Assembly (NCBI GenBank): GCA_902541245.1
Contig: CACBPT010000009.1
Coordinates: 1 to 34,667 of the forward strand
Origin: an uncultured SAR86 cluster bacterium
GTDB lineage: Bacteria > Pseudomonadota > Gammaproteobacteria > Magnimaribacterales > D2472
DNA length: 34,667 bases
Direction of reading: 5' to 3'
Of the stretch, positions 1,539 to 33,326 are shown piece by piece; the stretch's first letter is position 1, and each line of letters begins with the position of its first letter. The notes under the pieces were generated by a model. That model worked only from the letters and a program-made list of their open reading frames with translations, did not search any database and was not told where the DNA came from. The translations under genes and the position numbers were made by a program.

Positions 1539-1577
1539 ATTGTTTTAATTGTCAAAAAACAGAACCTTGAAAAAATT

Positions 1578-2762: not shown

Positions 2763-2767
2763 AAAAT

Positions 2768-8069: not shown

Positions 8070-8134
8070 ATTTAATTATGTTTACTTGATAATTCATGAT
8101 TATGATGGATGTATTCCATTTTGTGTATCCCAAG

Positions 8135-8143: not shown

Positions 8144-8176
8144 AAAAATTAGCCTTTTGGCCTATAAGGAAAAATA

Positions 8177-9940: not shown

Positions 9941-9990
9941 TATTTTGCCCTCAGAAAAAAAATTACAATTTTAAAAAATTAATTTAAAAA

Positions 9991-10018
9991 TGGTAATTAT
10001 TTGTATATTATATTACCA
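9991..10018. promoter_or_regulatory. Interrupted palindrome, candidate operator of the TetR-type regulator
   Basis: TGGTAAT (9991-9997) and ATTACCA (10012-10018) form a perfect 7-base inverted repeat with a 14-base AT-rich spacer. It ends 19 bases before the ATG of the carboxylase beta gene at 10038. The spacer contains TATATT and TATTAT, either of which could be the -10 box, so a bound repressor would block the promoter. P. aeruginosa AtuR is known to bind inverted repeats before atuA, and the operon here contains a TetR-type gene at 13614. Direct binding is inferred. Confidence 0.45.
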
Positions 10019-10037
10019 CTCAATTTATTAAATAGAA

Positions 10038-11696: not shown

Positions 11697-13612
11697 GATT
11701 TAATTCAATTCTTGTTGCGAATCGTGGAGAGATTGCCTGTCGAATAATGCAAACCGCTCAATTTATGGGTATTAAATGTGTAGCTGTTTTTGTTGATGCT
11801 GATAAGGATGCTCCATTTGTAAAGATGGCTGATGAAGCTATAAAGTTATCTTCTGGCTATATGGATGGATCTGCTATTATTGATGCAGCTAAACAATCTG
11901 GAGCAGAAGCGATCCATCCAGGATATGGTTTTTTATCAGAAAATGCAGCCTTTGCTAGAAAGGTTAAAAGCAATAAATTAATTTGGATTGGTCCATCGCC
12001 CCATGTAATAAAAGTCATGGGTGATAAATTAAAAGCTAAAGAAATAGCAGAAAAATCTGGGGTTCCCACTTTGCCAATGACCTCAAATACTAAAGATGTT
12101 AAAAGTATTGGCTATCCGATCTTGATCAAGGCTGCCGCAGGAGGTGGTGGTAAAGGAATGCGAATTGTTGAAAAAGAAAGTGAATTAAAAGATTCAATCA
12201 CAAGCGCTAAAAGAGAAGCTCTTTTGGGTTTTGATGACGATAGAATTTTTATAGAAAGATATGTAGAAAAATCACGTCATATTGAAATACAAATCTTAGG
12301 AGACGAACACGGTAATGTAGTTCATTTAGGGGAACGTGAATGCTCTATACAAAGAAGGCATCAAAAAATTATTGAAGAATCGCCTTCTCCAAGAATTGAT
12401 CCCTTTTTACGGGAGGAAATGGGTCAAGCAGCTATTAAGTTAGCTAAAAAAATTAAATACTGCTCTGCAGGAACTGTTGAATTTTTGTTTGATGATAAGA
12501 CAGATGAATACTGGTTTTTAGAGGTAAACACTAGACTGCAAGTTGAGCACCCAGTTACAGAAGAAGTTACAGGAATAGATCTGGTTGCTGAGCAAATCAA
12601 GATAGCTAGAGGAGATGAGCTTGAATTTGCTCAAGATGATATTGATTGGCATGGACATGCAATTGAAGCAAGATTGTATGCTGAGGATCCTGGAAATAAC
12701 TTTTTACCTGAAATAGGAACCCTGCACGCATATGACACTAGCCTAGCTTCAGAGGTTAGATGGGATTCAGGTGTAGAAGAAGGTAGTGTTATTGGAACAG
12801 ATTTTGATCCAATGTTATCTAAGGTTATTTCTTGGGCCCCTGATAGAATTGATGCTGCAAATAAACTGGCACGCGGACTTGAAAAGGCTCACATGGGAGG
12901 TGTGATAACAAATCGTCAATTTTTAATTTCTTGCTTAAGAAATGAAAATTTCTTAAACGGAAATACAACAACAGACTTTATTGAACGTGAAACTTTAGAA
13001 ACTAAAAAGCATCTTTCTGTAAATGAGCTTCATCAAACATCGACAGCAATTGCTTTATGGATAGCGCAACAAAATAGAGTCTCTGACCCCGTTACAGGTT
13101 TTATGCCCGCAAACTGGACCAATGGAAGAATGCCACTTCAAAGGGTTAAATTACTTTTTATGCAAGATGAGATCGAAGTAAAGTATAAATTAAACAAAGA
13201 AAATTTATATGAAGTTATGGGCTCCATTTGTGAAATTTACCATTGCGATAGTTTTGGCATTGATATAGAGATAGACTCTCACAGATTTTATGCTCATTTA
13301 ACTAAGGTAGGCAGTGAAATCGTAATAAATATGCCATTTGGAGACGTTAATGTATCTGTTCTGCCTAGGTTTATTGAACCAGGTAATGAGATCCCTGAAG
13401 GAGGTTTGATAGCTCCAATGCCTGGAAAAGTTATTGATGTGAAAGTTAAAAAAGGCAGTAAAGTAAAAGCTGGTGATACTTTGGTAATTATTGAGGCAAT
13501 GAAAATGGAACATTCAATTAAAGCAACTGAGACAGGCAAGATAGCCAAAGTAATGATCCAACTGAATGATCAAGTTGATAACGGTGCTACCCTTCTCGTT
13601 CTTGAAAAATAA
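11693..13612 (+). CDS. Acyl-CoA carboxylase alpha subunit: biotin carboxylase plus biotin carrier domain (AtuF/LiuD type)
   Basis: The 639-residue protein starts with the biotin carboxylase N-domain (LVANRGEIACRIM). The ATP-grasp domain follows, with the glycine-rich KAAAGGGGKGMRIV, HIEIQILGDEHGN, RECSIQRRHQK and EVNTRLQVEHPVTE. The C-terminal biotinyl domain has IAPMPGKVIDV and EAMKMEH, with biotinyl Lys604. It carboxylates biotin with ATP and bicarbonate for the beta subunit. Length and order match the alpha subunits of MCC and GCC. It overlaps the beta gene by four bases (ATGA), and one base separates its stop from the regulator's ATG. Confidence 0.93.
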   Translation: MRFNSILVANRGEIACRIMQTAQFMGIKCVAVFVDADKDAPFVKMADEAIKLSSGYMDGSAIIDAAKQSGAEAIHPGYGFLSENAAFARKVKSNKLIWIGPSPHVIKVMGDKLKAKEIAEKSGVPTLPMTSNTKDVKSIGYPILIKAAAGGGGKGMRIVEKESELKDSITSAKREALLGFDDDRIFIERYVEKSRHIEIQILGDEHGNVVHLGERECSIQRRHQKIIEESPSPRIDPFLREEMGQAAIKLAKKIKYCSAGTVEFLFDDKTDEYWFLEVNTRLQVEHPVTEEVTGIDLVAEQIKIARGDELEFAQDDIDWHGHAIEARLYAEDPGNNFLPEIGTLHAYDTSLASEVRWDSGVEEGSVIGTDFDPMLSKVISWAPDRIDAANKLARGLEKAHMGGVITNRQFLISCLRNENFLNGNTTTDFIERETLETKKHLSVNELHQTSTAIALWIAQQNRVSDPVTGFMPANWTNGRMPLQRVKLLFMQDEIEVKYKLNKENLYEVMGSICEIYHCDSFGIDIEIDSHRFYAHLTKVGSEIVINMPFGDVNVSVLPRFIEPGNEIPEGGLIAPMPGKVIDVKVKKGSKVKAGDTLVIIEAMKMEHSIKATETGKIAKVMIQLNDQVDNGATLLVLEK

Positions 13613-13613
13613 T

Positions 13614-14216
13614 ATGAAATTTCAAGCTGTCCTTTCAAAACAGTCGCCTCAACTTAGAAAGCGTCATCTTGAGGTTATGGACGAACTAGAAAGCATGCTT
13701 GATAAAGGCAAGTCATTTTCAACAATGTCTGACCTAGCAAAACAATTGAAAATTTCACTAAGAACCCTATATGAAATTGCACCAAGCAAAGAAGAATTAA
13801 TAGTGACAACCGTTGATAGGGTTCTAAAAAAACACGGCAAGATGGCAATAGATGCAATGAATGCTCATTCATCTCCTATAAAAAAATTAGAAAGTTTTCT
13901 GACTGTCGCTAATCAAGCAGTTGGGCCAAGATTTGAAAGATTCACGCTATCTCTTAGTAGTTTAAATTCATCTAAGCCAATGGTGGACTACCATGAACAA
14001 TACATAACTGACCTTATAAAAAATCTTTTAGATGAAGCAAGAATTAAAAATGAAATCAAAGAGATTGATACTCAGGCAACTGCATTACTACTTGGAGGCC
14101 TTGGTAGATATTTTCAATCTAAGAAACTCTTAAAAGATTTATACCAAACCCCTGAAAAAACTAGTAACTTTTTAACAAAAGTTATTATTGATGGCATCAA
14201 AATGGAGAAATCTTGA
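13614..14216 (+). CDS. TetR-family transcriptional regulator inside the atu-type operon
   Basis: This is a 200-residue protein when started at the ATG at 13614, directly after the carboxylase stop; a longer in-frame reading from 13566 would lie inside the carboxylase gene. The N-terminal helix-turn-helix, about residues 37-58, reads TMSDLAKQLKISLRTLYEIA followed by SKEEL, the TetR arrangement with Leu-Tyr at the recognition helix. The C-terminal half is helical and unlike any specific subfamily I recognise, as usual for ligand domains. It probably represses the operon in which it lies, binding the palindrome at 9991-10018 and releasing on an acyl-CoA or terpenoid ligand. AtuR in Pseudomonas has an analogous role but is encoded beside the operon. 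Confidence 0.85.
   Translation: MKFQAVLSKQSPQLRKRHLEVMDELESMLDKGKSFSTMSDLAKQLKISLRTLYEIAPSKEELIVTTVDRVLKKHGKMAIDAMNAHSSPIKKLESFLTVANQAVGPRFERFTLSLSSLNSSKPMVDYHEQYITDLIKNLLDEARIKNEIKEIDTQATALLLGGLGRYFQSKKLLKDLYQTPEKTSNFLTKVIIDGIKMEKS
14204..14207 (+). promoter_or_regulatory. Ribosome-binding site supporting the TTG start of atuA
   Basis: GGAG stands five bases before the TTG at 14213. The TTG overlaps the TGA stop of the regulator gene (TTGA), typical of translational coupling. No in-frame ATG is near, and the N-terminal sequence after this TTG begins as expected for AtuA proteins. Confidence 0.6.
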
Positions 14217-15988
14217 GCGAAGAAATTATAAAGATTGCAAATTGTAGCGGTTACTACGGAGATAAATTATCTGCTGCTAAAGAGATGGTGGATGGAGGAC
14301 CTATAGATGTTCTGACTGGAGACTATTTAGCAGAACTCACCATGACAATTCTTTTTAATCAAAAGATGCAGCGCGGAGACGATAAGGGATACGTGGGCAC
14401 CTTCTTAAAACAAGTGAAAGCAGTAGCCAAATCATGTAAAGAACAAAATATTAAAATCGTTACGAATGCCGGTGGCTTAAATCCCTCTTCTATGGCCAAT
14501 GAAATAGAAAAAATCTTAGAAGAACTCAATATTTCTCTCAATGTGGCTTATATAACTGGAGATGATTTGATGGCAAGAATGGACTCTCTAAGAGAGGAAG
14601 GAGAATCATTTTTAAACATTGATAAAGATATCCCAATTGATAAATCAGGATGTCAAACACTCACTGCAAACGCATATCTTGGTGCATGGGGAATTAAAGA
14701 GGCGTTAGATAAAGGCGCTGATATTGTCGTATGCCCAAGGGTGACAGATGCTGCAGTAGTAATTGGTCCAGCAGCATGGAAATTTAATTGGAAGAGAGAT
14801 GATTATGATGCATTGGCTGGCGCATTAGCAGCAGGTCATATTATTGAATGTGGTTGCCAAGCAACCGGTGGTAACTATGCTTTTTTTAAAGAGGTGCCAA
14901 GCTTTGATAACGTTGGCTATCCTATAGCTGAAATAAAAAATGATGGAAGTTTTTATATTACAAAGCATCCAGGCACTGGTGGCTTGGTATCCACTGGAAC
15001 CGTAACAGCACAGTTATTGTATGAAATTAGCTCACCTGCATACCTAAATCCTGACGTCATAGCTCATTTTGATACCTTGAATATCGAGGAAATTTCTAAA
15101 GATAGAGTATATGTATCAGGATGCAGAGGAAGCTCACCAACAAATACTCATAAAGTTTGCATTAATCTTGCTGGTGGATATAGAAATGGTATGGAGTTTA
15201 TTCTTACTGGTATAGATATTGAAGAAAAAGCTAAAATAATTACTGACGCCTTATTTAATAATGTTGGAGGCAAAGACCAATTTGATGATGTTTCAATCCT
15301 GTTAGATAGAACCGACAAAAAAGATCCAAATTCTAATGAAGAGGCAATGGCCTCACTGAGAATTTCAGTTAAATCAAAAGATCCTGATTTAGTTGGCAGA
15401 ATGTTTACTCAAAAGATGATAGAGCTTGCTTTAGCAAATTATCCAGGTTTTTTTACAGGAAGTGGAGTTCGATCTGGAGGACCTGTATTGGTCTATTGGC
15501 CAGCTTTAATAGATAGTAAACATATAAAAGAGACTGTTCATATAGACGGCAAAAAAATTGATGTAATGCCAACTAATCAAATGGATTTAGAAGATACATA
15601 TTATCAAAAAAAGCCAATTGAAGTTCCCCCTCCTCCCTCAGGTGAAACTCTCAATAGGCCATTAGGAGAAATTTTTGGAGCTAGGTCTGGCGATAAGGGC
15701 GGTTGTGCAAATATTGGTGTATGGGCAAAAAGTGAAAATGCATTCTCTTTTTTAAATAATTATTTAACTGTTAAGAAAATCAAAGAATTAATGCCTGACA
15801 TAAGTGAATTTGAAATAGACAGATATGAGCTTCCAAACATACTGTCGCTAAATTTTTACATCCATGACATATTAGAAGATGGAGTTTCTTCCAATAACAG
15901 AAAAGATGGTCAAGCTAAATCTCTAGGGGAATACTTGAGAGCAAAGTATGCAGATATCCCTAAATCTTTATTTGAGGAAAACTTATGA
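14213..15988 (+). CDS. atuA: Acyclic terpene utilisation protein AtuA homologue (DUF1446 family)
   Basis: The 591-residue protein is close to the length of P. aeruginosa AtuA (about 600). The long N-terminal DUF1446 domain includes IANCSGYYGDKLSAA, a DVLTGDYLAE segment, TNAGGLNPSSMA, CPRVTDAAVVIGPAAW and GHIIECGCQATGG. A second, smaller C-terminal domain starts near residue 490 with GARSGDKGGCANIGVWA, the AtuA-like domain signature. AtuA is required for growth on citronellol/geraniol in Pseudomonas, but its reaction is not established. It starts with TTG, supported by GGAG. Its stop overlaps the crotonase ATG by four bases. This gene is the main reason for reading the operon as terpenoid catabolism. 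Confidence 0.88.
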   Translation: MSEEIIKIANCSGYYGDKLSAAKEMVDGGPIDVLTGDYLAELTMTILFNQKMQRGDDKGYVGTFLKQVKAVAKSCKEQNIKIVTNAGGLNPSSMANEIEKILEELNISLNVAYITGDDLMARMDSLREEGESFLNIDKDIPIDKSGCQTLTANAYLGAWGIKEALDKGADIVVCPRVTDAAVVIGPAAWKFNWKRDDYDALAGALAAGHIIECGCQATGGNYAFFKEVPSFDNVGYPIAEIKNDGSFYITKHPGTGGLVSTGTVTAQLLYEISSPAYLNPDVIAHFDTLNIEEISKDRVYVSGCRGSSPTNTHKVCINLAGGYRNGMEFILTGIDIEEKAKIITDALFNNVGGKDQFDDVSILLDRTDKKDPNSNEEAMASLRISVKSKDPDLVGRMFTQKMIELALANYPGFFTGSGVRSGGPVLVYWPALIDSKHIKETVHIDGKKIDVMPTNQMDLEDTYYQKKPIEVPPPPSGETLNRPLGEIFGARSGDKGGCANIGVWAKSENAFSFLNNYLTVKKIKELMPDISEFEIDRYELPNILSLNFYIHDILEDGVSSNNRKDGQAKSLGEYLRAKYADIPKSLFEENL

Positions 15989-16776
15989 GCATAAATAAAT
16001 TATCTTTGGAGGGTTTGAATTTTCAAGCAACAAAAATAAATATTAAAAATAATATTTTAACAATTACATTGAATCGACCTGAGAAAAAAAATGCATTAAA
16101 TAATGTGATGATGAATGAGCTAAATTTTGCTTTAGCTTATGCGAAACAAGAAAAAGAAATTAGGGTTGTTGTTATTGATGCAGAAGGAGATATTTTTTGC
16201 GCCGGAGCTGATCTGAGGCTTGCTAAAGAGGATTCCAATGTTCCAAAAATAGAGGGTGCAGATGACATCAGTTTCTCCCTTCGAAGACTGCACAAACCCG
16301 TTATATGCAAAATTCAAGGATCAGTCCTAGCAGGAGCATTGTTACTAGTAACAAATGCAACTCATGCTATAGCTGTTGACTCAGCTAATTTTTCAGCACC
16401 TGAGATACACAGGGGATTGTGGCCTTTTATGGTCATGGCTGGATTATTCAGAGTCATGCCAAAAAGAGCTGGGCTTGATTTCATTATGCGAGGTCAACCC
16501 ATTGATGCTAATAAAGCTGAGAATTGGGGGTTAATCAATGAGTCTGTTGCAGCTAATGAGCTAGATAAAAGAGTTAGCGAACTATCTAAAGAACTAGCCA
16601 GTCTAGCTCCAGGAACCATGCAATTTGGTCTAGAAGCATATGAAAAACAAGATACGTTAGACTTTGATGAGGCTCTTCCTTATTTACAAAAACAAATTGC
16701 TAAATGTTTTGAAGGTGAAGATGCCAAAGAAGGTATTGCTGCGTTTTTAGAAAAAAGAAAACCAAATTGGAAATAA
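15985..16776 (+). CDS. Enoyl-CoA hydratase/isomerase family protein (AtuE-like)
   Basis: This is a 263-residue crotonase-fold protein. The CoA-binding oxyanion hole comes from FCAGADLRL and the GSVLAGA segment, and LNRPEKKNALNN is the usual N-terminal motif. Of the two catalytic glutamates of enoyl-CoA hydratase, the second is kept (SAPEIHRG, Glu140). The first, twenty residues earlier by alignment, is a leucine (Leu120). In the atu pathway AtuE hydrates isohexenylglutaconyl-CoA, the product of the carboxylase, so position after carboxylase and AtuA fits that role. The missing first Glu could mean a different reaction. GAGG at 15974-15977 precedes the ATG. Confidence 0.85.
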   Translation: MSINKLSLEGLNFQATKINIKNNILTITLNRPEKKNALNNVMMNELNFALAYAKQEKEIRVVVIDAEGDIFCAGADLRLAKEDSNVPKIEGADDISFSLRRLHKPVICKIQGSVLAGALLLVTNATHAIAVDSANFSAPEIHRGLWPFMVMAGLFRVMPKRAGLDFIMRGQPIDANKAENWGLINESVAANELDKRVSELSKELASLAPGTMQFGLEAYEKQDTLDFDEALPYLQKQIAKCFEGEDAKEGIAAFLEKRKPNWK

Positions 16777-16789
16777 ATAAGAAAGATTC

Positions 16790-18013
16790 ATGGATTTAGA
16801 ATACGGGCCAGAATATCAAGACTTCACAAAAGAGGTTCAAAGCTTTTGTAAAAAATATGAAGGGCTATCTTTCATAGATAGTTCAAATAATCCTCTGGGA
16901 AGTTCAGGTGGATCTGGTGGGCCGAAAATGTCTAGGTCTGAATGGCAAAAAATCTTAATTAAGAATGGCTATTTTGCACGTTCAGTTCCTAAAGAATACG
17001 GAGGATATGGTGGCGAAGCAGATATTCTCAGAAGCAGGATTATTGCTGCAGAGTTTTCAAAATCAAAAACTCCAGGAGCAATGGGTGGTCAAGGTATTGA
17101 TATGTTGGTTCCTACATTATTAGAGATGGGTACCGAGGAACAAAAACAAGCCTATATAAAGCCCACACTGCATGGAGAAATGATTTGGTGCCAAGGTTAC
17201 TCTGAACCAAATGCGGGGAGTGATTTGGCAAGTTTACAAACTAAGGGAGAGTTAGTTGGTGATGAATGGGTGATTAATGGTCAAAAAATATGGACCAGTA
17301 CTGCTCAATACTCCCAAATGTGTTTTTGTCTTGTTAGAACTGAACCAGATGCTCCAAAGCACGCTGGAATAAGCTACTTATTGATCCCAATGGATACCCC
17401 TGGCATTGAAATTAGGCCTCTGGTAGATATGACTTTAAATGCTGGATTTAATGAGGTCTTTTTTACAGACGTAAAAATTCCTGCTGGCAATATTGTAGGT
17501 AAAAGAGGTGAAGGCTGGGCCGTTGCAAATGCAACTTTAGGGCATGAAAGAGGCTCCCTGGCTCCACCAGATGCAACCATGAATAGAGTGAATATGTTGA
17601 TGCATCTAATGAAAAAAGAAACACTTGATGGCAAACCGCTAATTGAGCATCCAATTTATCGAGATCGGTTGATGCAAATTCAAGGCAAAGTTTTAGCCCA
17701 ACAATCTCATGCCTTAAGACTGTTATCAGCTAAGCTAAACCCTGGAACTGATGTCAAGATAGGTAAAATGATTCAAAAGCTTACTGGAACAGAGCTTAGA
17801 CATGAATTAGAGGGCCTTGCCATTGATGTGATGGGTGAGATTGGAACCTTATATGAAGATAGTCCTCATCTTAAAAATGATGGTACGTGGCAATTTATAT
17901 ACATGTATTTTCTGGGCCTCATTATCGGCGGAGGTACCAGTCAAATTCAAAAGAATATAATTGCTGAGCGAGGTCTAGGTATGCCCAAAGAACCAAAAGT
18001 AGAGGGAGCATAA
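16790..18013 (+). CDS. Acyl-CoA dehydrogenase, alpha-type subunit (atu-type operon)
   Basis: This is a 407-residue ACAD-family protein. The CQGYSEPNAGSDLASLQTKG segment and QKIWTS match the acyl-CoA/flavin region. The putative catalytic glutamate is Glu253 in GHERGS. No RxQFG or QxxGG motif for FAD adenosine binding is present; the C-terminus reads IIGGGTSQIQ. It begins 13 bases after the crotonase gene, with its partner ACAD one base after its stop. In Pseudomonas AtuD oxidises citronellyl-CoA to geranyl-CoA; this pair is placed to do the equivalent step. Family call is firm, substrate and pairing are inferred. Confidence 0.9.
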   Translation: MDLEYGPEYQDFTKEVQSFCKKYEGLSFIDSSNNPLGSSGGSGGPKMSRSEWQKILIKNGYFARSVPKEYGGYGGEADILRSRIIAAEFSKSKTPGAMGGQGIDMLVPTLLEMGTEEQKQAYIKPTLHGEMIWCQGYSEPNAGSDLASLQTKGELVGDEWVINGQKIWTSTAQYSQMCFCLVRTEPDAPKHAGISYLLIPMDTPGIEIRPLVDMTLNAGFNEVFFTDVKIPAGNIVGKRGEGWAVANATLGHERGSLAPPDATMNRVNMLMHLMKKETLDGKPLIEHPIYRDRLMQIQGKVLAQQSHALRLLSAKLNPGTDVKIGKMIQKLTGTELRHELEGLAIDVMGEIGTLYEDSPHLKNDGTWQFIYMYFLGLIIGGGTSQIQKNIIAERGLGMPKEPKVEGA

Positions 18014-18014
18014 A

Positions 18015-19100
18015 ATGTATTTTGGCTTATCAGATGAACAATCCTTTTTTCAGGATAATGTTAGAAGGTATTTAAAAGAACATGCCACCATAGATAACAT
18101 TAAGCACATTACTAGCGGGGATGAAAAAAATCTTTCTGCAGAGATTCATAAAGGTCTTCTAAATCTTGGAATAAATGGGCTCTTAATTCCAGAAAAATTT
18201 GGTGGTCTAGGTCTGGATTTGCTCTTTGCAGCAGTGGTTTCAGAAGCTTTAGGGGGCGGTGTCGGCCCTACTCCATTTATTGCATCCTATGTCATGGCGC
18301 CTACAGCTATTAAGCATGCGGGTAGTAAATCCCAGCAAGAAAACTATCTTTCAAAAATCGCTACTAATGAATACCGTTTTGGAGTTGGTTTTAGTGAATT
18401 TATAGGCAAAAGAAATGATGCTGGAATTTCTTTTTCGGACAATACATTAAACGGAAGAGCCATGTTTGTACTTGATGCAGATGATGCAACGCATGTATTG
18501 CTAACAGATGAACAAGGTCAAATATTCGTTGTAGATGCAAAATCTGCAAACATAGAAATAGTTAAACTTACAACCGTTGATAAAACTAGACAATATTCAG
18601 AAGTGGTTTGCAACAACTTAGAGGCAGAACTATTAAAAAATTCTTCAGATTCAACAGATCCACTTATCCATGCAATTGATGCCGGCAGGATTATGCTTGC
18701 TGCAGATTCTCTTGGTGCTTCACAAACCATGATTAATAAGGCAGTTGATTATGCTAAGGAACGAAAGCAGTTTGGCAGAGTCATAGGATCATTTCAGGCT
18801 GTAAAGCATATGTGTGCAGAGATGGCTGCTGACCTAGAGCCTTGCTATGCAATGGTTTGGCACGCTGCGCATTGTCATGATAATTCTCCTAATGAGGCGA
18901 GATTAATGGCCTGTCATGCTAAAGCACATGTCTCTGAAATGAGTAAAGGCATATCGAAGAAAGCTACGGAGGTTCATGGCGGCATGGGTTTCACAGACTT
19001 ACTTGGTCTGCATTACTGGTTCAAACGAATTGGATTAAATCGTCAAATTCTTGGGAGCCCAGAACTTGTTCGAGAAGAAGCATACAAAGCACAGATTTAA
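18015..19100 (+). CDS. Acyl-CoA dehydrogenase, beta-type subunit (atu-type operon)
   Basis: The 361-residue ACAD-family protein ends the operon. It keeps ERKQFGRVIGSFQAVKH and EVHGGMGFTD, the FAD-binding motifs absent from the preceding subunit. The catalytic-base position reads IDAGR (Gly224), and the alternative C-terminal position reads ILGSPE, so no base is present at either. It likely forms a heteromer with the gene before it. GAGGGAG shortly before the ATG at 18015 is a strong ribosome-binding site. The stop overlaps that of the convergent DsbA-like gene by four bases. Confidence 0.88.
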   Translation: MYFGLSDEQSFFQDNVRRYLKEHATIDNIKHITSGDEKNLSAEIHKGLLNLGINGLLIPEKFGGLGLDLLFAAVVSEALGGGVGPTPFIASYVMAPTAIKHAGSKSQQENYLSKIATNEYRFGVGFSEFIGKRNDAGISFSDNTLNGRAMFVLDADDATHVLLTDEQGQIFVVDAKSANIEIVKLTTVDKTRQYSEVVCNNLEAELLKNSSDSTDPLIHAIDAGRIMLAADSLGASQTMINKAVDYAKERKQFGRVIGSFQAVKHMCAEMAADLEPCYAMVWHAAHCHDNSPNEARLMACHAKAHVSEMSKGISKKATEVHGGMGFTDLLGLHYWFKRIGLNRQILGSPELVREEAYKAQI

Positions 19101-23888: not shown

Positions 23889-24581
23889 TTATCTATGTTT
23901 GAGGATAGTCTCGATTTTAGATATATCTTCTTTAGAATCAATATCAATGCTTTTTTCATCATCCATTAAATAAAGTATTGTTTGATTTTGAAGAAATATA
24001 GGGTTGTTTAAAAAAGCTTCTTTGTTAATAACATATATTGCCCCGTTAGGTTTATATGCTTCGGGTAATTCTTGACGATTCATCGATATAAATTGCTTTC
24101 CAAAAGGAGCTTTAAGATACCCATCTTGATTTAAAATAAAAGATTTCAAGATATTATTTTGTGTCTTTTGAACAGAAATTAAGGCATTACAATCTTCAGC
24201 AAGAAATTGCTTGCAAGCCAAATCAATGTCCTTATGATCCCTTAAAGGAGAGGTTGGTTGAAGTAAAACTATATTTTCAAAGTCAAAACCTAAATCATTA
24301 ATTTTTTTAATTGCATCAAGAACAACAAGCTCCATTTTTGCATTATCGGTTGCAAGCATGTCGTCTCTTTTTATTTGAATTACCTCCTGATCAGACGCAA
24401 TTTGTAAAATTTTATTAGAATCTGAACTCACAAAAGTGCTTTCAATGATAGAAGATAATTTGCTGGCATCAATAGTCCATGAAATCAATGGTTTTCCATT
24501 TAAGGGGTGCAGATTTTTGTTTCTAAGCCCTTTTGAATTTTTTCTAGCAGGAATTAAAGAGACAAATTGTTTACTTTTCAT
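23889..24581 (-). CDS. Acylneuraminate cytidylyltransferase-like CMP-sugar synthetase (NeuA/LegF type)
   Basis: The 230-residue nucleotidyltransferase contains LIPARKNSKGLRNKN (CTP-binding loop), RDDMLATDNA, and LLQPTSPLR, hallmarks of CMP-nonulosonate synthetases. Length suits the single-domain LegF/PseF/NeuA type. It activates a nine-carbon alpha-keto acid sugar with CTP, giving the CMP-sugar used by cytoplasmic or membrane glycosyltransferases. It overlaps the upstream PtmE-like gene by 11 bases and is last in the cluster. The sequence does not tell whether the substrate is sialic, legionaminic or another nonulosonic acid. Confidence 0.9.
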   Translation of the reverse strand: MKSKQFVSLIPARKNSKGLRNKNLHPLNGKPLISWTIDASKLSSIIESTFVSSDSNKILQIASDQEVIQIKRDDMLATDNAKMELVVLDAIKKINDLGFDFENIVLLQPTSPLRDHKDIDLACKQFLAEDCNALISVQKTQNNILKSFILNQDGYLKAPFGKQFISMNRQELPEAYKPNGAIYVINKEAFLNNPIFLQNQTILYLMDDEKSIDIDSKEDISKIETILKHR

Positions 24582-25635
24582 TTAAAAAATTAGAAATGAA
24601 GTCTATTTGAGCTCTTTTGTAATCTCCGATCTGTCCAATATCAAGCCAATATTCATATATTGGAAAAGCAGCAACCAAGGATTTTTCTTTTGATATAGTT
24701 TCGTTAATCAGCGAAGGCATATCCATATATAAATCTTTTGGAAAATTTTTTAAAATGTCGCTGTTTAAAACATATATTCCAGCATTTACTTTTGAAGAAA
24801 TTTTTGGCTTTTCGTCAATTGAATCTACATAACTATTTTCAGAAGAAACAACTCCATAAGGAATATCATAATAAAAATTTCTTACGCACATTGTAATTCT
24901 AGCTTTTGAGCTTTGATGGAATTCAATCAGTTGTTTGAAGTTTACCCTAGTCAAGATATCAGCATTCATTACAAAAAAAGGTTCATTGATTTCAGTAGAA
25001 TTTATTAAGCTTAAACATCCCGCAGTGCCAAGAGGATTTGTTTCCTCAATATAATTAATTTTGCAGTCATACCTGCTCCCATCTCCCAAATAATCTTTTA
25101 TCATTTCTGATTTATAGTGAGTTGAAATTATAAATTTCTTATATCCATAAGATAGAAAATTTTGAAGAATAGTCTCAATGATAGGTTTTTCACCAACTTT
25201 TAGGAGTGGCTTTGGGCATTCATCAGTTAATGGCTTCAACCTTGATCCAAAACCGCCTGCCATAAGTACAACAGTATTTTTTTTATCAGTAATAGCTTTG
25301 AAACCATTAGCGTGGATTTCTTTAATTGTGTCATCCTCAAATAGAACTGGAATTGCTTGAAGGTCCTTTTCCAATATTTTGTTTTCTAAGTTAGCTCTAT
25401 CCTCAGAATCATAATACTTTACAAAATTCTTGTGCATTGCGCCTTGGATAGGTTCATCAAGCTCTACACCTTTAAGAATAGCCCTTCTTATGTCCCCATC
25501 CGTAACAGTTCCAATGAGCTTGTTTTGTTCATCTATTACAAAGAGAATCTTAAGCTCTAAATCATTGAGCGCTTTGATAGACGATCTTATGGATAAATTA
25601 TCTAAGATAAGATGTGGATCTGGATTAATTATCAT
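24571..25635 (-). CDS. CBS-domain sugar-1-phosphate nucleotidyltransferase (PtmE-like)
   Basis: Of 354 residues, about 1-115 form a CBS pair (KILFVIDEQNKLIGTVTDGD, and a second repeat). About 120-350 form a nucleotidyltransferase domain with LMAGGFGSRLKPLTDECPKP and FVMNADILTRV. This CBS-nucleotidyltransferase arrangement accompanies legionaminic-type clusters. In Campylobacter jejuni PtmE makes GDP-GlcNAc from glucosamine derivatives for legionaminate synthesis. Here it sits between the NeuC-type and NeuA-type genes, so GDP-linked precursors are plausible. The nucleotide preference (GTP, UTP or other) is not readable from sequence. Confidence 0.85.
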   Translation of the reverse strand: MIINPDPHLILDNLSIRSSIKALNDLELKILFVIDEQNKLIGTVTDGDIRRAILKGVELDEPIQGAMHKNFVKYYDSEDRANLENKILEKDLQAIPVLFEDDTIKEIHANGFKAITDKKNTVVLMAGGFGSRLKPLTDECPKPLLKVGEKPIIETILQNFLSYGYKKFIISTHYKSEMIKDYLGDGSRYDCKINYIEETNPLGTAGCLSLINSTEINEPFFVMNADILTRVNFKQLIEFHQSSKARITMCVRNFYYDIPYGVVSSENSYVDSIDEKPKISSKVNAGIYVLNSDILKNFPKDLYMDMPSLINETISKEKSLVAAFPIYEYWLDIGQIGDYKRAQIDFISNFLNEK

Positions 25636-25641
25636 ATGAAA

Positions 25642-26871
25642 TTACTGATACCACTCATTTTTTTTAATGCCTTTAATAGTCATTTCTTTTCTTAGTAATC
25701 TTATATAATCTAATTCTAAATTAGAAAGCACATCTGCTATTTTTATACCTGCATCGCCCACACCATAAGGATTTATACATTTTCTTACCTCTAATCTAAA
25801 TTGACTATCATCAAAGCACTTAATAATGGCATCATATATTTCTTTTGGATCATAGTTTGCATCAATAACATTTTCAGCTCTTAGCCTTCCATCTTGCCGA
25901 GAGCCAATATTTACAGTGGGACAAAGAAAAGCTGGCGTTTCTTTGATACCAGATGAGGAATTGCCAGCGCAACAAACTCTTATGTCGGGATCTAGTGATA
26001 ATGCAAGTATGCCGTGATAATCGTATCTTCCTAAGGAAGAGAAAATTTGAACATTTTCATAGCCTAAAAACTTTTTTTTAGCAAAATTTTGGATTGTATC
26101 AATGATCTTTCTCCCACCGGCATCGTTATTAGGAAAAGTTATAATAATTTGTACACCTTGATCGGCTATGTTTTTTAATGCCTCCAAAGATCTCTCAATT
26201 TGATCTGATGCCAGTCCATACTCTGTAGTAACCGAATGCTGGGTAAATAAAACTATGGGCTTATTCAGATCTAAATTATATTTAGCTTTTAACTCCTTTG
26301 GTGTTGCGAAGTTATCCTCTTGAATTAAATCAATCGCTGGAAAACCAACCGTATGAACTCTCCATTCAGCCTCACCCATTGCTAAAAGTCGATTTGTAGC
26401 TTGTTCATTTGTTGTGAAATGAATATGAGATAATTTGGTCATAGCATGTCTCACCGAATCATCTAGCGCCCCTCCTTCTGTAATATCTCCACCTTCTATG
26501 TGTGCGGTAGGAATATTCATTTGGGTTGAGGCGATGACTGCCGCGAATCCCTCAAACCTATCTGCATAAACAACAAAAATATCTGGCTTTATTTGTGCCA
26601 AAGCTTTTGAAATTGACAATATACCTGATCCAATAGCTTTTGAAGTCGAAAATTCAGAATCCTCATCTAACTCAATTGAGACCTCAAAATGAACCTCAAA
26701 TCCGTCCTTATTAATTTCCTTGATTGTACTACCAAAGTTTTTATCAAGATGAGCACCAGAAACAATTAACCGATAATCAAGCTCAGGATGGCTGTCTATT
26801 GCTTTAAGCACAGGATATTGAAGACCATATTCTGCTCTATTTCCTGTAAAAACTGCTATTATTTTTTTCAT
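25642..26871 (-). CDS. Hydrolysing NDP-N-acetylhexosamine 2-epimerase (NeuC/LegG type)
   Basis: The 409-residue protein belongs to the GT-B-fold epimerase family. FTGNRAEYGLQYPVLKA at the N-terminus is the NeuC signature, followed by IVSGAHLD, DRFEGFAA, HIEGGDITEGGALDDSVRHA and, near the C-terminus, GNSSSGIKETPAF. NeuC and LegG hydrolyse an NDP-HexNAc and invert C2, giving a free ManNAc-type sugar for NeuB. The ATG overlaps the TGA of the upstream SDR gene (ATGA). The donor could be UDP- or GDP-linked; the PtmE-like neighbour favours GDP. Confidence 0.92.
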   Translation of the reverse strand: MKKIIAVFTGNRAEYGLQYPVLKAIDSHPELDYRLIVSGAHLDKNFGSTIKEINKDGFEVHFEVSIELDEDSEFSTSKAIGSGILSISKALAQIKPDIFVVYADRFEGFAAVIASTQMNIPTAHIEGGDITEGGALDDSVRHAMTKLSHIHFTTNEQATNRLLAMGEAEWRVHTVGFPAIDLIQEDNFATPKELKAKYNLDLNKPIVLFTQHSVTTEYGLASDQIERSLEALKNIADQGVQIIITFPNNDAGGRKIIDTIQNFAKKKFLGYENVQIFSSLGRYDYHGILALSLDPDIRVCCAGNSSSGIKETPAFLCPTVNIGSRQDGRLRAENVIDANYDPKEIYDAIIKCFDDSQFRLEVRKCINPYGVGDAGIKIADVLSNLELDYIRLLRKEMTIKGIKKNEWYQ

Positions 26872-27722
26872 CTAAGAATCTCCGAAGTGTATTGTATAAG
26901 GTTTTTTAACCCTTCTGAAAAATAAATCTTAGATTCCCAGTTATAGTTTTTTTTTGTAAGTGAAGTATCTAATAAAATTGATGAATGAGCCGAACTTTTA
27001 TCAGTTTCTATAATTTTAATATTTGATAATTGTGCAATCTCTAAAATTTTTTCTGTTAGTTGTTTAATAGATATAGATTCACCTGATGCAACATTAAAGA
27101 TGCCTGTTTGATTTGATTTCGCCATATATACTAGACAGGTTGCTACATCTTTAACATGAACAAAATCACGAATAGGACCTCCATCTTTAATTTGAATAGA
27201 CTTGATATTTGAACAAACAACCTGATTCAATATATCTGATATTACATTTTTTGAACTCATTCCAATCCCATAGACATTAGCAAGTCTTGCTACAACTCCA
27301 CCATTTGAAATTACAGTACTTTCACACTCTAGTTTTGATTTTGAATAAATATTAAATCCTTTTATGTTTTCACTTGGTTTATGCTGATAAGAAGATTGAT
27401 CTCCATAAACTCCAGCTGATGAAGCGTATATAATTCTTGCAGAAGTATTGTCAGTGATGGCCTTAAGTCTTGTTAAATTATCAGAAATATAATTTTCACC
27501 CATATCTTCAGCAAAGCTTAGGTCATTATTCTCAGATAAATAAATAATTGAAGCTTTAAAATATTTCTTTGACATATCATTAAAGCTATTTAGAGATGAG
27601 CTTATTTCATCGAGGGTTCCTCTATTTCGAATTGAGAAATAATGAAGTCCTTTCCGCTTTAAGTATTTCTCAATGTATTGACCAATGAATCCAGATACTC
27701 CATATATTCCATATAAGGTCAT
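26868..27722 (-). CDS. Extended SDR NAD-dependent epimerase/dehydratase/reductase in nonulosonate cluster
   Basis: The 284-residue extended short-chain dehydrogenase has the N-terminal GVSGFIG nucleotide-binding loop, a SSAGVYGD segment with the catalytic Ser/Thr region, and YSKSK providing the Tyr and Lys of YxxxK. RDFVHVKDVA and a later NVASGESIS are typical of GalE-like sugar-nucleotide enzymes. It probably acts on the keto-sugar made by the 4,6-dehydratase of this cluster, either as C4 reductase (as WbpV-type enzymes do) or epimerase. Canonical legionaminate sets have no such SDR but have an aminotransferase, absent here. The exact reaction is not assignable. Confidence 0.8.
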   Translation of the reverse strand: MTLYGIYGVSGFIGQYIEKYLKRKGLHYFSIRNRGTLDEISSSLNSFNDMSKKYFKASIIYLSENNDLSFAEDMGENYISDNLTRLKAITDNTSARIIYASSAGVYGDQSSYQHKPSENIKGFNIYSKSKLECESTVISNGGVVARLANVYGIGMSSKNVISDILNQVVCSNIKSIQIKDGGPIRDFVHVKDVATCLVYMAKSNQTGIFNVASGESISIKQLTEKILEIAQLSNIKIIETDKSSAHSSILLDTSLTKKNYNWESKIYFSEGLKNLIQYTSEILR

Positions 27723-27734
27723 AGAAAAATTTAT

Positions 27735-28775
27735 TTAATTCTGAATATCTTCTGAAGTTAATTGAGCATCCATATTAATATTTTTAGAGGCAATTTTACC
27801 TATAATTGATTCGAATTTTTCAGCAAGTATTTGTCCAGTGCCAGGTCTTTTTACCCATATATTTTCTAGACTAAAAATCTCTCCTTTTTTAATATCTTTA
27901 ATGGCAACTACACTAGCGAATGCAAATTTTATAGTGGGCAGTTCTTCATCAACTGGGCCTTTAGTGCCTCCCCTTTCTTCAAAAAGAATATTAGCACCTT
28001 TAATTAAATCTTTAGCGGCTTCAGGATCCATAGAGTTTACAATATCTGGGCCCTCTCTAGACATAGAGTCAGTGAAATGCCTCTCTAAAATTGATGCGCC
28101 CATCGCCACTGCCCCAAAACAAGCATGATTTGATACAGTATGATCAGATAAGCCAATTACTGCATCTTGAAAATTCTCCTGTAATTCTGACATAGCTCCG
28201 AGACGCACTAAATGGTTTGGAGTAGGGTATATATTTGTAGTATGAAGCAAAGCATAAGGAACATTTTTATTTCTCAAAATTTCTACTGCAGGTCTAATGC
28301 TGTTTATATCATTCATTCCGGTGCTCAATATTACTGGTTTACCAAAATTTGCAATATGATTAATTAAAGGATAATTATTGCATTCTCCTGAACCAATTTT
28401 ATATCCACATACATTCATAGACTCTAGTCTATCTGCCGCAGCTCTAGAAAAAGGTGTGCTAATAAAAATTTTTCCTTTTGATTCTATGTAATTCTTTAAA
28501 GCAATTTCATCATCTTCATTTAAAGCACACTCCTGCATAATTTGATATATTGATTTTTTAGAATTTCCAGGAATAACTGATTTAGCCTCTGCTGTCATTT
28601 CATCATCAACCACATGAGTCTGATGTTTAATAACCTCAATCCCTGCTTCAATAGCTTTGTCAACTATAGATATTGCGTTTTCAAGTGACCCATTATGATT
28701 AATCCCAATCTCAGCTATCACTAGCGGAGGATACGCAGAACCTATTTTTCTGCCACCTAAACTTAATTCATTCAT
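27735..28775 (-). CDS. N-acetylneuraminate synthase-family enzyme (NeuB/LegI type)
   Basis: The 346-residue protein combines a TIM-barrel NeuB domain with a C-terminal antifreeze-like SAF domain from about residue 285 (KDIKKGEIFSLENIWVKRPG). Barrel motifs are AEIGINHNGSLENA, HQTHVVDDEM, KIGSGECNNYPLI, ILSTGM and GLSDHTVSNHA. It condenses phosphoenolpyruvate with a six-carbon N-acyl-mannosamine-like sugar to give a nine-carbon nonulosonic acid. Three subgroups (NeuB, LegI, PseI) exist; the EIGINHNG wording favours NeuB or LegI over PseI. It lies between the SDR and dehydratase genes on the same strand. Confidence 0.93.
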   Translation of the reverse strand: MNELSLGGRKIGSAYPPLVIAEIGINHNGSLENAISIVDKAIEAGIEVIKHQTHVVDDEMTAEAKSVIPGNSKKSIYQIMQECALNEDDEIALKNYIESKGKIFISTPFSRAAADRLESMNVCGYKIGSGECNNYPLINHIANFGKPVILSTGMNDINSIRPAVEILRNKNVPYALLHTTNIYPTPNHLVRLGAMSELQENFQDAVIGLSDHTVSNHACFGAVAMGASILERHFTDSMSREGPDIVNSMDPEAAKDLIKGANILFEERGGTKGPVDEELPTIKFAFASVVAIKDIKKGEIFSLENIWVKRPGTGQILAEKFESIIGKIASKNINMDAQLTSEDIQN

Positions 28776-28792
28776 TTAATACCTCTCTTATA

Positions 28793-29983
28793 TTACATTT
28801 TACTATCAAGATAAATGCCTTTTTCATTATGTTCAAATGATGGAAGCATCTTTTGAAAAATTTGTAAAATTGAAGCTTTGGAATAATTTCTACTTTTAGA
28901 AATTTCAGATACTGAATCTTTAAACATATCCAGATTTTTTTTACTTATCTCAAGATTACTTTTTATTATTCCTATGCCTGAGAATGACTCCATGTCCAGA
29001 ATATCATCTTCTTCAACAAATTCTTCAAAATCTTTTTCTCCAGTCGTATTGCTAGCTGAAAAATAGCATGGCCATTTTTTTAATTTAACTAGCTGATAAA
29101 TCTCAGATCTTGCTTCCTCCTCACTTGAGCATATGTAGGGAGTATATCCATAATAATTCAAAAATTTATTTGCAATTTCTGAAAAAGTAACAAGATGCAA
29201 GCTATCATCTAATTTTGGAAAAAAAATATCATTGGTTTCTCCTAACAAAGATGACAATAAGCATAATTCACCAGACTCTTGAGAGGTAAGAAAATATCTT
29301 CTTACATCATTAGGTGCAGAAATTGGTTGTATTTTTTTAATTCTGTCTTCAAAACCAGCCAAAAGAGAGCCGTCAGAAAAAGCAACGTTTGCAAAACGAG
29401 CTGTAGATATATTTATTTTTTGAGAATAATAAGATAAAAATAACTCCATTACTCTTTTTGATGCGCCCATCATATTTACTGGATTTGCGGCTTTATCAGT
29501 AGAGACACAAAAATATTTTTTAGAATTCATTGCAATAGCAGATTTGATATTTTTTTCGGTGTTTAGGATATTGACTTTAATCATTCTCATTAATGTAAAT
29601 TGATCCTCTTCACTTCTAACATGCTTAAGAGCGGAAAGATTTAACACGTAATCATAGGGGCCATTTCTATTAACCATGTCTTCAAACTCATCACTACCAG
29701 CATCCAATGCAAAGGTTTTAAAATCTCCATCTATATATCCCAAGGAGCTTCTTATATCTCGAACCAATTCAACTAAATTATTTTCACTAAGATCGACGCA
29801 ATGAATTTTTTTTGGAGACCTTTTAAAAATCTCTTTTGAAACAGATTGACCAATTGAGCCAGCTGCACCAATGACTAGAAATGATGAATGAGATACCTTT
29901 TCAGACAAAACTTCAGAAAAGTACTTTACATCTTTTTCGAAAAGTAAATTTTCTCGTCCAATAATTTTTAAAACTTTGTCCAT
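28793..29983 (-). CDS. CapD/WbpM-type NDP-HexNAc 4,6-dehydratase-like protein
   Basis: Of 396 residues, the first ~300 are an extended SDR: IGAAGSIGQSVSKEIF (nucleotide-binding), LNLSALKHVRSEED and STDKAANPVNMMGASKR, with Met where YxxxK has Tyr. These are the hallmarks of the CapD/WbpM/PglF dehydratases. There is no N-terminal membrane domain, so it is a short soluble form. About 95 C-terminal residues extend beyond the catalytic core and I do not recognise them. It likely converts UDP- or GDP-GlcNAc to the 4-keto-6-deoxy sugar, the first step to 6-deoxy nonulosonate precursors. It differs from LegB, which is RmlB/Gmd-like. It is first in the minus-strand cluster. Confidence 0.85.
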   Translation of the reverse strand: MDKVLKIIGRENLLFEKDVKYFSEVLSEKVSHSSFLVIGAAGSIGQSVSKEIFKRSPKKIHCVDLSENNLVELVRDIRSSLGYIDGDFKTFALDAGSDEFEDMVNRNGPYDYVLNLSALKHVRSEEDQFTLMRMIKVNILNTEKNIKSAIAMNSKKYFCVSTDKAANPVNMMGASKRVMELFLSYYSQKINISTARFANVAFSDGSLLAGFEDRIKKIQPISAPNDVRRYFLTSQESGELCLLSSLLGETNDIFFPKLDDSLHLVTFSEIANKFLNYYGYTPYICSSEEEARSEIYQLVKLKKWPCYFSASNTTGEKDFEEFVEEDDILDMESFSGIGIIKSNLEISKKNLDMFKDSVSEISKSRNYSKASILQIFQKMLPSFEHNEKGIYLDSKM

Positions 29984-30302: not shown

Positions 30303-31295
30303 TTATTCTTCCCCGAAAATTTTGTTATGTGTATTATTGACCCTTACAAAAGTCGTACATTTAGAAAGTGTTTTAAGTTTATTGGCTCCAACATAAGTAC
30401 ATGCAGATCGAATTCCGCTCAATATATCTTTTACTGTATCATCTGCCTTTCCTCGATATTTAACCACAACTGTTTTACCTTCCGTGCCTCTATATGAATT
30501 ATGATTACCATGCTTATTCATAGCAGATTCCGAAGCCATACCATAGAATTTCATAAACCCATCTTCAATCTTTCCTTTGCATTCATCATGACCAGCAAGC
30601 ATTCCACCTATCATCACAAAATCAGCGCCTCCTGCAAATGCCTTTACAATATCTCCAGAACTGGTGCAACCTCCATCGGCAATAATATGTGCATCAAGAC
30701 CATGCGCTGCATCAGCACATTCAATTACAGCGCTTAATTGAGGATAGCCGATTCCAGTTTTGATTCTAGTAGTACAGACAGAGCCAGGACCAATACCAAC
30801 TTTGACTATGTCAGCACCAGCAAGGATTAACTCCTGCGTCATATCAGCAGTAACTACATTTCCGGCAACAATAGTAGCATTTGGACATTTTTGCCTTAAC
30901 TTTTTAACAGCATCAACAAATTTAATAGTATATCCATTTGCAACATCAAGTCCTATGAAACCACCCGAGGTTTTTGACAATTTAGAAATATCATCAATTC
31001 CACCGAGCCAGCAAGTATTTGACTGCTTTTTTTTAAATTTTTCAAAATTTTTTTTAAGATAATGTCTTGCAGGGCATGTAACTAAATTATATTTAGATAA
31101 AACTTTATGCATTGCAGGAGTTCCTACTGTATCCATATTGGCTGACATGATAGGAATTCCAGTCCATTTTTTTTTACTCCAAAGAAAAGTATGTGTTCTC
31201 TCAAGATTAACCTCTCCTCTTGAACTCATTGTAGATCTCTTTGGCCTAATTAAGACATCGGAATAATCTAACTTTATATCCTCATTAACTAGCAA
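30303..31295 (-). CDS. guaC: GMP reductase
   Basis: The 330-residue IMPDH/GMPR-fold protein follows E. coli GuaC (347 residues) closely. Shared segments are [33 protein letters not shown]-like strand 3 (seen as [10 protein letters not shown]), [17 protein letters not shown] with the catalytic Cys, and YRGTEGKTV with [10 protein letters not shown]. No CBS insert is present, which separates it from IMP dehydrogenase. It reduces GMP to IMP with NADPH. The start is a TTG at 31295, aligned with the E. coli N-terminus; no nearby ATG fits. It lies between the nonulosonate cluster and the guaA region. Confidence 0.93.
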
Positions 31296-32006: not shown

Positions 32007-33326
32007 TTACTCCCACTCAATAGTAGCTGGAGGTTTACTAGAGATATCATAAACAACTCTGCTAATATTATCTAACTCATTGACGATACGATTTGAAACA
32101 TGTGCTAAAAAATCATGTGGCAGTTTAGCCCAATCAGCAGTCATAAAATCTACTGTTTCAACCGCCCTTATAGCTATTACGTCTGCATATCTTCTTTCGT
32201 CACCAACTACTCCAACAGATTTTATAGGAAGATAAGCACAAAATGCCTGGCTAACGTGATCGTATAAATTAGCCTTAATTAGCTCTTCGATAAAAATTGC
32301 ATCTGCATTTTGCAAAGTAGCAACTTTATCTTTACAAATCTCACCTAAAATTCTTACGCCTAGCCCAGGTCCAGGAAAAGGATGGCGATTAAGCATTTGT
32401 AAGGGAAGTCCTAGTTTGGCTCCCATCCTCCTTACTTCATCTTTAAATAGATCCCTTAATGGCTCAACAAGCTCCATTTTCATATCTTCTGGCAGTCCAC
32501 CAACATTATGATGAGATTTAATAACCCGTGCCTCTTTTGACTCAGATTCTGAAGATTCAATTACATCTGGATAAATTGTTCCCTGAGCTAAATAGTTAAT
32601 TTCATCTTTAAGTTTCGCTGCTTCATTATCAAATATATCTATAAACGTTCTTCCTATAACTTTTCTTTTTTGCTCAGGCTCAGTAATGCCTTTAAGATGC
32701 CTGAAGAAAACCTTCTTTGCGTCAACAACAAGTAGATTCAAATCCATTGTCTCCTTGAATAAACTCTCAACATCCCTTGCTTCATTTTTACGAAGCAAAC
32801 CATTATCAACAAATACACATATCAGATTTTTTCCAATAGCCTTATCCAGCAACATTGCAGTGACTGATGAATCAACACCACCAGACAAGCCCAATAAAAC
32901 TTTTTGATCGCCAACTCTGTCTCTGATTTCTTGAATTCTATGCTCAATAAGATCTTCTATTCTCCATTGAGGGGTAGATTCACATATCTTAAATATAAAA
33001 TTTTCTAATATAGCTGTTCCTTGCTCAGCAAGGGTCTGCATTCCATAACAAATTCCTAAAATTGGGACATTAAGCTTAAAGATATGTTCTGGAATTCTTG
33101 GTGTATTTGCTTTCGTTACAGACTCTGGGCCACCGGAAAGAATAATGCCTTTTGGATTATTTACTTTGACATTTTCTAGAGATATATCCCAAGGAAAAAT
33201 TTCAGAATACACACCCAATTCCCTAACTCTTCTAGCAATTAATTGAGTATATTGAGAACCAAAATCAACTACTAAAATTGAATCTAATTTTTTTTCTTTT
33301 AAGCTAAATTTATTATCTTTATTCAC
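32007..33326 (-). CDS. guaA: GMP synthetase with in-frame deletion in the glutaminase domain
   Basis: The protein has 439 residues against 525 in E. coli. The N-terminal glutamine amidotransferase domain is normal up to [12 protein letters not shown] (Cys93 nucleophile), then jumps after Gln102 to [10 protein letters not shown], which aligns just after the FHPEV motif. About 90 residues with the His and Glu of the triad are missing. The synthetase part is complete: PP-loop GLSGGVDSS (146-154), [46 protein letters not shown], and the C-terminal KPPATIEWE. It should still amidate XMP with ammonia but not with glutamine, unless another glutaminase helps. It lies five bases after the MBL-fold gene and is followed by the SDR-like gene. 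A sequencing or assembly deletion is also possible. Confidence 0.9.
32010..32014 (-). promoter_or_regulatory. Ribosome-binding site deciding the GTG start of the SDR-like gene
   Basis: On the minus strand GGGAG is followed by TAAA and the GTG at 32005. The TAA is the stop of guaA, so the site lies inside the last codons of guaA and couples the two genes. This decides against the longer frame starting at 32056. Confidence 0.55.

Follow-up and report, generated by a model that had tools for sequence, protein, structure and literature searches.

A predicted hybrid operon for a 9-deoxy nonulosonic acid with one amino group in an uncultured SAR86 bacterium

What does a nonulosonate gene cluster make if the aminotransferase and acetyltransferase of the legionaminate route are missing from it? 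This question is raised by a six-gene operon of an uncultured SAR86 cluster bacterium, located in a 34,667-nucleotide stretch of contig CACBPT010000009.1 (assembly GCA_902541245.1), the whole of which is here called the window. An earlier note on this DNA had described a six-gene nonulosonate cluster at 23889-29983, and all six open reading frames (ORFs) were confirmed on the minus strand and assigned to families. From 29983 to 23889 the order is a dehydratase (Deh), NeuB, a short-chain dehydrogenase/reductase (SDR), NeuC, a PtmE-like gene and NeuA. The intergenic distances, counted from Deh, are 17, 12, -4, 6 and -11 bp, and because of this tight spacing (-11 to +17 bp) the six ORFs are read as one operon:

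28793..29983, minus strand: N-acetylglucosamine (GlcNAc)-nucleotide 4,6-dehydratase (Deh), 396 amino acids (aa), operon gene 1; Polysacc_synt_2, match to 3pvz, T-x9-M-x3-K triad
27735..28775, minus strand: SiaC-type nonulosonic acid synthase (NeuB), 346 aa; NeuB and SAF, SiaC clade, pocket letters
26868..27722, minus strand: short extended SDR, 284 aa, proposed nucleoside diphosphate (NDP)-4-keto-6-deoxy-GlcNAc 4-reductase (putative role); Epimerase/RmlD-type families
25642..26871, minus strand: hydrolysing 2-epimerase (NeuC), 409 aa; Epimerase_2, NeuC_NnaA above cut-off, PtmE-associated clade
24571..25635, minus strand: PtmE-like nucleotidyltransferase with an N-terminal CBS part, 354 aa; CBS and NTP_transferase, sugar and nucleotide presumed
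23889..24581, minus strand: cytidine monophosphate (CMP)-nonulosonate synthetase (NeuA/PseF type), 230 aa, operon gene 6; CTP_transf_3

Neither an aminotransferase nor a LegH/NeuD-type gene is among the six, and no DegT protein is encoded in the window, in line with what the earlier note had stated. We propose, from the sequences and with a probability of roughly 0.6, that the operon encodes a hybrid nonulosonate pathway leading to the CMP form of a 9-deoxy (3,5,9-trideoxy) nonulosonic acid with one amino group. The idea, already voiced in the note, that the SDR stands where LegC and LegH would be is backed by the SiaC type of NeuB, by a NeuC clade linked to PtmE and by recurrence in three other genomes.

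The predicted route would start with PtmE, which may activate GlcN(Ac)-1-phosphate, probably as a guanosine diphosphate (GDP) sugar; alternatively, cellular uridine diphosphate (UDP)-GlcNAc may enter the pathway. Deh would, by its family, form the 4-keto-6-deoxy sugar, and the SDR, with LegC and LegH missing, would reduce the 4-keto group to a hydroxyl, giving NDP-N-acetylquinovosamine (QuiNAc) or its 4-epimer. NeuC would then remove the nucleotide and invert C2, producing 6-deoxy-N-acetylmannosamine (6-deoxy-ManNAc) or an epimer, and NeuB would condense this with phosphoenolpyruvate to 5-acetamido-3,5,9-trideoxy nonulosonic acid, i.e. 9-deoxy-N-acetylneuraminic acid (9-deoxy-Neu5Ac) or an epimer; for both enzymes the reaction is that of the family and the substrate is the one proposed here. 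Finally, NeuA would make the CMP donor. The NeuA ORF scores 122.9 bits against the PseF profile, below the cut-off of 205.7.

The type of the synthase indicates what kind of acceptor has to be delivered. NeuB matches Neisseria meningitidis SiaC (1xuu) with 466.6 bits over residues 2-345, against 146 bits for SpsE and 129.7 bits for a PseI. In a tree of 85 rows (94 minus identical ones, with the window copies L001, L002 and L118 and ORFs of at most 300 aa or at least 420 aa excluded), it sits in a 13-row clade together with N. meningitidis SiaC (support 100/100). None of the NeuB rows from LegC-bearing loci is a member of this clade in that tree, and the window protein lies outside the group of the PseI row. 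Positions 70-85 of 1xuu, a loop and a helix, are tied to C4-C6 specificity in PMC7371886. NeuB carries the SiaC letters at 10 of these 16 positions, and the NeuB rows from LegC loci (n=62; all NeuB rows of LegC-bearing loci were compared as LegI, including a few that are not) mostly differ at 70, 71, 72, 79, 82 and 83, as well as at 86 and 87. Judged in this way, the window NeuB is of the SiaC type and no legionaminate synthase, and clade membership combined with the pocket letters indicates that its acceptor most likely carries a 4-hydroxyl rather than a 4-acetamido group. Two further loci deserve mention. In L126 (G114:C107), 935-3168, on a contig of 3.6 kb, LegB (497 bits, above cut-off) directly precedes a SiaC-type NeuB (65%), making this a candidate hybrid. 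On a viral contig (L178, IMGVR_UViG_3300028384_000549, 7995-10779), NeuB (62% to the window's), NeuC and NeuA are consecutive, an apparent case of virus-borne sialic acid synthesis.

The NeuC of the window scores 390.9 bits against NeuC_NnaA (cut-off 235.9), and in a tree of 30 selected rows it belongs to a clade of five genomes (the window, G050, G052, G409 and G184; 100/100), distinct from the plain-type clade of 7 rows (100/100) and the LegG-type clade of 14 rows. A PtmE-like gene is present in all five genomes of this clade, and none was found in the inspected surroundings of six of the seven plain-type rows (L127, L129, L131, L176, L178 and L182). NeuB is not split in this manner, as the SiaC-type NeuB of G409 groups with that of G036, which belongs to a plain NeuABC cluster. 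The contrast between the two trees suggests that the NeuC type shifts once Deh or LegB, the SDR and PtmE join, and that NeuB remains sialic-acid-like. The order NeuB-SDR-NeuC-PtmE is found in four of the five clade genomes, namely the window, G050 (L112; 71% complete), G052 (L143; 95%, one contig) and G409 (L128; 97%, from another family). Deh adjoins this module in the window and in G050; in G052 it lies about 13 kb from PtmE, and in G409 a LegB-like protein (448.7 bits, cut-off 475) stands next to PtmE. The PtmE-like protein of the window is 34-47% identical to those of the four related clusters. In L112 the PtmE-like gene is split into two ORFs (12356-13424), through either a frameshift or a sequencing fault.

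No further NeuC of the window clade was detected in a phylum sample of 398 genomes (E up to 1e-100) or in the family of G409 (20 genomes, 1e-80), and in a class sample it occurs in 3 of 369 genomes, which are the source genome, G184 and G409. Plasmid scans gave no second module copy among the matches listed (20, 25 and 25), and scans of viral contigs returned no match for NeuC, one contig for NeuB and three weak matches for the SDR. Within the window's family, all three genomes with a window-clade NeuC (106 searched) possess a Deh of the 54-100% type, which is present in 11 of 107 family genomes, one of them partial. The chance figure for this co-occurrence is 8e-4 with the window's own genome, the starting point, included; with that genome left out (2 of 2 versus 10 of 106) it becomes about 0.008, a value that ignores kinship and incomplete genomes.

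These associations bear on the chief rival explanation, according to which NeuC, NeuB and NeuA make ordinary Neu5Ac from UDP-GlcNAc, and Deh, the SDR and PtmE make a separate sugar, for instance a QuiNAc- or N-acetylfucosamine-type donor, the operon being merely shared. We consider this unlikely, since the NeuC is not of the plain type and belongs to a clade with PtmE in every genome, and since the SDR is placed between NeuB and NeuC in four of the five clusters. In its favour are the SiaC type of NeuB itself and the genome G036, of the window's genus, where a plain NeuA-NeuB-NeuC set with amidotransferase genes has no Deh, such SDR or PtmE adjoining. In addition, Deh of other genomes in the family stands without NeuB or NeuC beside it, near sugar-transferase-like proteins (named by eye). 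In three loci of the family (L114, L116 and L117) Deh is followed by a sugar-phosphotransferase-like protein (by eye) and preceded by LegC in L114 and by an SDR in L116; Deh seems to have a role in other surface sugars of the family as well. The G036 locus (L182, 3-9768) contains, next to its plain NeuA-NeuB-NeuC, WbuX-, HisF- and HisH-like genes beside a PseC/PseG/PseH-like set (by eye), which suggests synthesis of an acetamidino neuraminic acid; on an Alistipes indistinctus plasmid, an N-acetyl sugar amidotransferase likewise follows a NeuABC set.

Is the expected aminotransferase encoded elsewhere? The source genome (G000), 58.4% complete, amounts to 951,164 bases on 39 contigs. A search of it for LegC and LegH homologues, as suggested in the earlier note, gave no match for LegC (TIGR04181) and, for NeuD (TIGR03570), matches below the cut-off only (best 60 bits versus 160.8). 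The DegT family as a whole has no match in its 0.95 Mb, window included, and all 14 control genomes were matched. There is a single NeuB copy, and no WbuX above the cut-off, the only match (22.9 bits) lying inside a GMP synthase ORF. Taken alone, the absence of LegC/LegH-type genes is weak evidence in an incomplete genome, and we therefore turned to related genomes. LegC is above the cut-off in none of the four module genomes, two of which are 95 and 97% complete, and the control G040, from the window's family, reaches 529.5 bits. The LegH/NeuD-type profile TIGR03570 is above the cut-off in 0 of 5 genomes, although even the LegC-positive G040 scores only 149.9 (cut-off 160.8) and other acetyltransferase types exist. 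WbuX, absent above cut-off from the source genome, is above it in G050, G052 and G409, where HisF- and HisH-like genes stand beside the module (assigned by profile scan in L112 and by eye in L128 and L143).

Further information comes from the usual company of the dehydratase. Deh is a full-length match to 3pvz, named as a UDP-GlcNAc 4,6-dehydratase (522 bits), and has the triad TDKAANPVNMMGASK at 162; a T-(x)9-M/Y-(x)3-K triad is described for its dehydratase family in PMC7439481. Among the best 80 of 566 loci with a close Deh, drawn from named genomes, LegC adjoins Deh in 69 and lies within 8 kb in 71. NeuB is found within 8 kb of Deh in 60 of the 80, and LegC is present in 59 of these 60. 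In L074 the contig stops inside LegC and in L111 LegC is located about 9 kb from Deh; with both counted as LegC-bearing, seven of the 80 loci are without LegC. Three of the seven (L033, L059 and L066) have an SDR no more than 1 kb from Deh and a PtmE-like gene in the locus, and the SDR of L033 is the top match to a four-SDR profile among the Deh loci surveyed (135.7 bits). Hence, where Deh occurs without LegC, an SDR often, but not always, stands beside it.

The SDR itself is of the Epimerase/RmlD type, with the glycine motif GVSGFIG, the SSA motif and YSKSK. In its SSAGVYG segment Ala-Gly replaces the Ser-Glu of STSEVYG in the G409 LegB, so that the dehydratase Glu is lacking; a function as second dehydratase was considered unlikely on this ground and rejected. 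With the Tyr-x3-Lys pair present and the Glu missing it resembles the 4-reductases Preq, WbpV and RMD, and epimerases fit as well. No equivalog was above its cut-off for the window SDR, the three other module SDRs or the SDRs of L033, L036, L059 and L066. The role we favour is deduced from the neighbours: Deh yields a 4-keto sugar, the type of NeuB calls for a 4-hydroxyl, and the SDR is the sole candidate in the operon. We infer that it acts as a putative NDP-4-keto-6-deoxy-GlcNAc 4-reductase. On the sequences compared, the SDR appears to replace LegC and LegH, and the SiaC-type synthase appears to replace LegI.

Several observations weigh against the proposed trideoxy product. The type of NeuB leaves the C6 hydroxyl undecided, ManNAc appearing to fit as well as 6-deoxy-ManNAc. 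The fold and family of the SDR give no function: in a fold search with its model (mean predicted local distance difference test score, pLDDT, 88.6) 4-epimerases came out best, with GalE at Z 31.4, and the GDP-4-keto-6-deoxymannose reductase RMD followed at Z 30.7, a tie that leaves reductase and epimerase undivided. The module SDRs of G050, G052 and G409 are only 30-32% identical to that of the window, and the cofactor letters after strand 2 are Arg-rich in the window and L128 and Asp-containing in L112 and L143. Nor does the vicinity of an SDR to Deh prove that LegC is replaced: of the 73 LegC-bearing loci, 8 also have SDR-profile matches, mostly longer proteins, at most 1.5 kb from Deh. The fifth clade genome, G184, has NeuA-NeuC-NeuB-PtmE on a 5.5 kb contig that holds no SDR or dehydratase. 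In G070 (L113, 2-4521), Deh, PtmE and NeuA are accompanied by a NeuC of the LegG type, the contig ends with a piece resembling an SDR, and no LegC was seen within 12 kb; NeuC type consequently tracks LegC imperfectly, and the locus is possibly a second kind of aminotransferase-less cluster. Moreover, L058 has Deh and a LegI-type NeuB with no LegC beside Deh (best candidate 27% identical, about 6 kb upstream), so that a cluster without LegC need not have an evidently different type of NeuB. Amination is also possible in the related genomes because of their DegT or PseC proteins: a fusion of CBS and DegT (LegC score 333 bits, cut-off 420) within the gene run of the module in G052, a DegT protein of 335.6 bits to LegC on another contig in G409, and in G050 a PseC above the cut-off (501.7 bits) with a second NeuB and PseG/PseH-like ORFs (by eye) about 5 kb downstream. 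Neighbours of the CBS-DegT protein of G052 (L143, 13435-14847) are a second NeuB, a formyltransferase and a TIM-barrel protein, a set that possibly represents another unusual nonulosonate pathway.

The operon might instead belong to a legionaminate-like, diamino pathway whose aminotransferase and acetyltransferase are encoded in the missing 42% of the genome. Besides this incompleteness, the CBS-DegT fusion of G052 and the arrangement in L058, the presence of Deh and PtmE, both typical of LegC-bearing clusters, speaks for such a pathway. We regard it as improbable: NeuB falls outside all rows from LegC loci, LegC is above the cut-off in no module genome, including the two nearly complete ones, and LegC adjoins Deh in 69 of the 80 surveyed loci, with one more case cut by the contig end.

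An epimerase or combined epimerase-reductase activity of the SDR, on either the 4-keto sugar or the nucleotide sugar, is in our estimate equally improbable; the product would then be a trideoxy sugar of another configuration or would not be reduced by the SDR. The top structural matches, 4-epimerases and a 4-keto reductase within Z 1 of each other, are compatible with this, as is the tentative configuration of the trideoxy sugar of Fusobacterium nucleatum (see below). On the other hand, a 4-keto sugar should need reduction or amination before a SiaC-type NeuB can use it, and the operon offers no other reductase candidate. A pseudaminate pathway was rejected, as no DegT protein is encoded in the source genome (58% complete), NeuC replaces PseG and NeuB is not of the PseI type.

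The proposed trideoxy pathway thus combines parts of several known systems. The CMP-legionaminic acid pathway of Campylobacter jejuni, which we take to comprise PtmE, LegB, LegC, LegH, LegG, LegI and LegF, shares with it PtmE-type activation, 4,6-dehydration of a GlcNAc nucleotide, a hydrolysing 2-epimerase, NeuB-family condensation and CMP activation. In contrast, the window operon has an SDR and neither LegC nor LegH, its NeuB is of the SiaC and not the LegI type, and its dehydratase is no LegB but of the T-x9-M-x3-K type; the G409 cluster does use a LegB-like protein. With the Neu5Ac pathway of N. meningitidis (NeuC, NeuB/SiaC and NeuA) it has in common the NeuB clade and much of the sugar pocket; it differs in the additional PtmE, SDR and dehydratase and in a NeuC outside the plain-type clade, in a tree whose rows do not include the N. 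meningitidis NeuC. The two middle steps have a counterpart in UDP-QuiNAc synthesis of Bacillus cereus, where the dehydratase Pdeg followed by the NADPH-dependent 4-reductase Preq is a proven pair (PMC4514872). Here, too, a dehydratase and then an SDR reductase would act on a GlcNAc nucleotide, a likeness of reaction and not of sequence to Preq; the B. cereus product is a hexose donor, whereas NeuC and NeuB would here extend the sugar to a nine-carbon acid.

The predicted product class, 9-deoxy with one amino group at C5, is that of the one trideoxy nonulosonic acid reported, from the O-chain of Fusobacterium nucleatum ATCC 25586, and the gene cluster for fusaminic acid had not been investigated as of 2020 (both from PMC7371886). 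The configuration of the F. nucleatum sugar is tentatively given as L-glycero-L-gluco and hence not that of Neu, a difference from 9-deoxy-Neu5Ac. Its amidine group agrees with the presence of WbuX/HisF/HisH-like genes in three related clusters, the window's not being among them; in G050, G052 and G409 this set would convert the N-acetyl group to an acetamidino group, as in the Fusobacterium sugar. The author of the earlier note knew of no defined pathway of this kind. None leading to a 9-deoxy mono-amino nonulosonic acid was found in the literature searched, which covered few subscription papers; the sugar class, by contrast, is already known chemically, and only the pathway would be new.

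Gene-based classification of nonulosonic acids distinguishes Neu, Leg and Pse, and a hybrid set that is conserved would constitute a fourth route. Tentatively, with the odds slightly against it, the operon may be the first set of genes for a nonulosonic acid that is trideoxy (9-deoxy) and mono-amino. It would then be a fourth branch that joins the front end of the legionaminate route to a sialic acid synthase, with an SDR substituting for LegC and LegH, and that, together with WbuX/HisF/HisH-like genes, would lead to the 5-acetimidoylamino-3,5,9-trideoxy type known from F. nucleatum. If this is true, a SiaC-type NeuB with a dehydratase, an SDR and PtmE but no LegC would be a gene signature for 9-deoxy sialic acids, and the trideoxy sugar of F. 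nucleatum, an oral bacterium of humans, would have a candidate pathway. Annotation from the name of NeuB or NeuC alone would label such clusters as Neu5Ac or legionaminate.

The operon is flanked by a nitroreductase-like ORF (named by eye) on one side and a GMP reductase on the other. The latter (30303-31295) has 330 aa from a TTG start, compared with 347 in its family. The GMP synthase ORF (32007-33326, 439 aa) has a glutamine amidotransferase part short by about 70-85 residues, with family positions from about 86 to 173 missing, through either a real deletion or an assembly fault. Farther away in the window, carboxyltransferase, biotin carboxylase, AtuA and acyl-CoA dehydrogenase genes (10038-19100) resemble an acyclic terpene utilisation operon.

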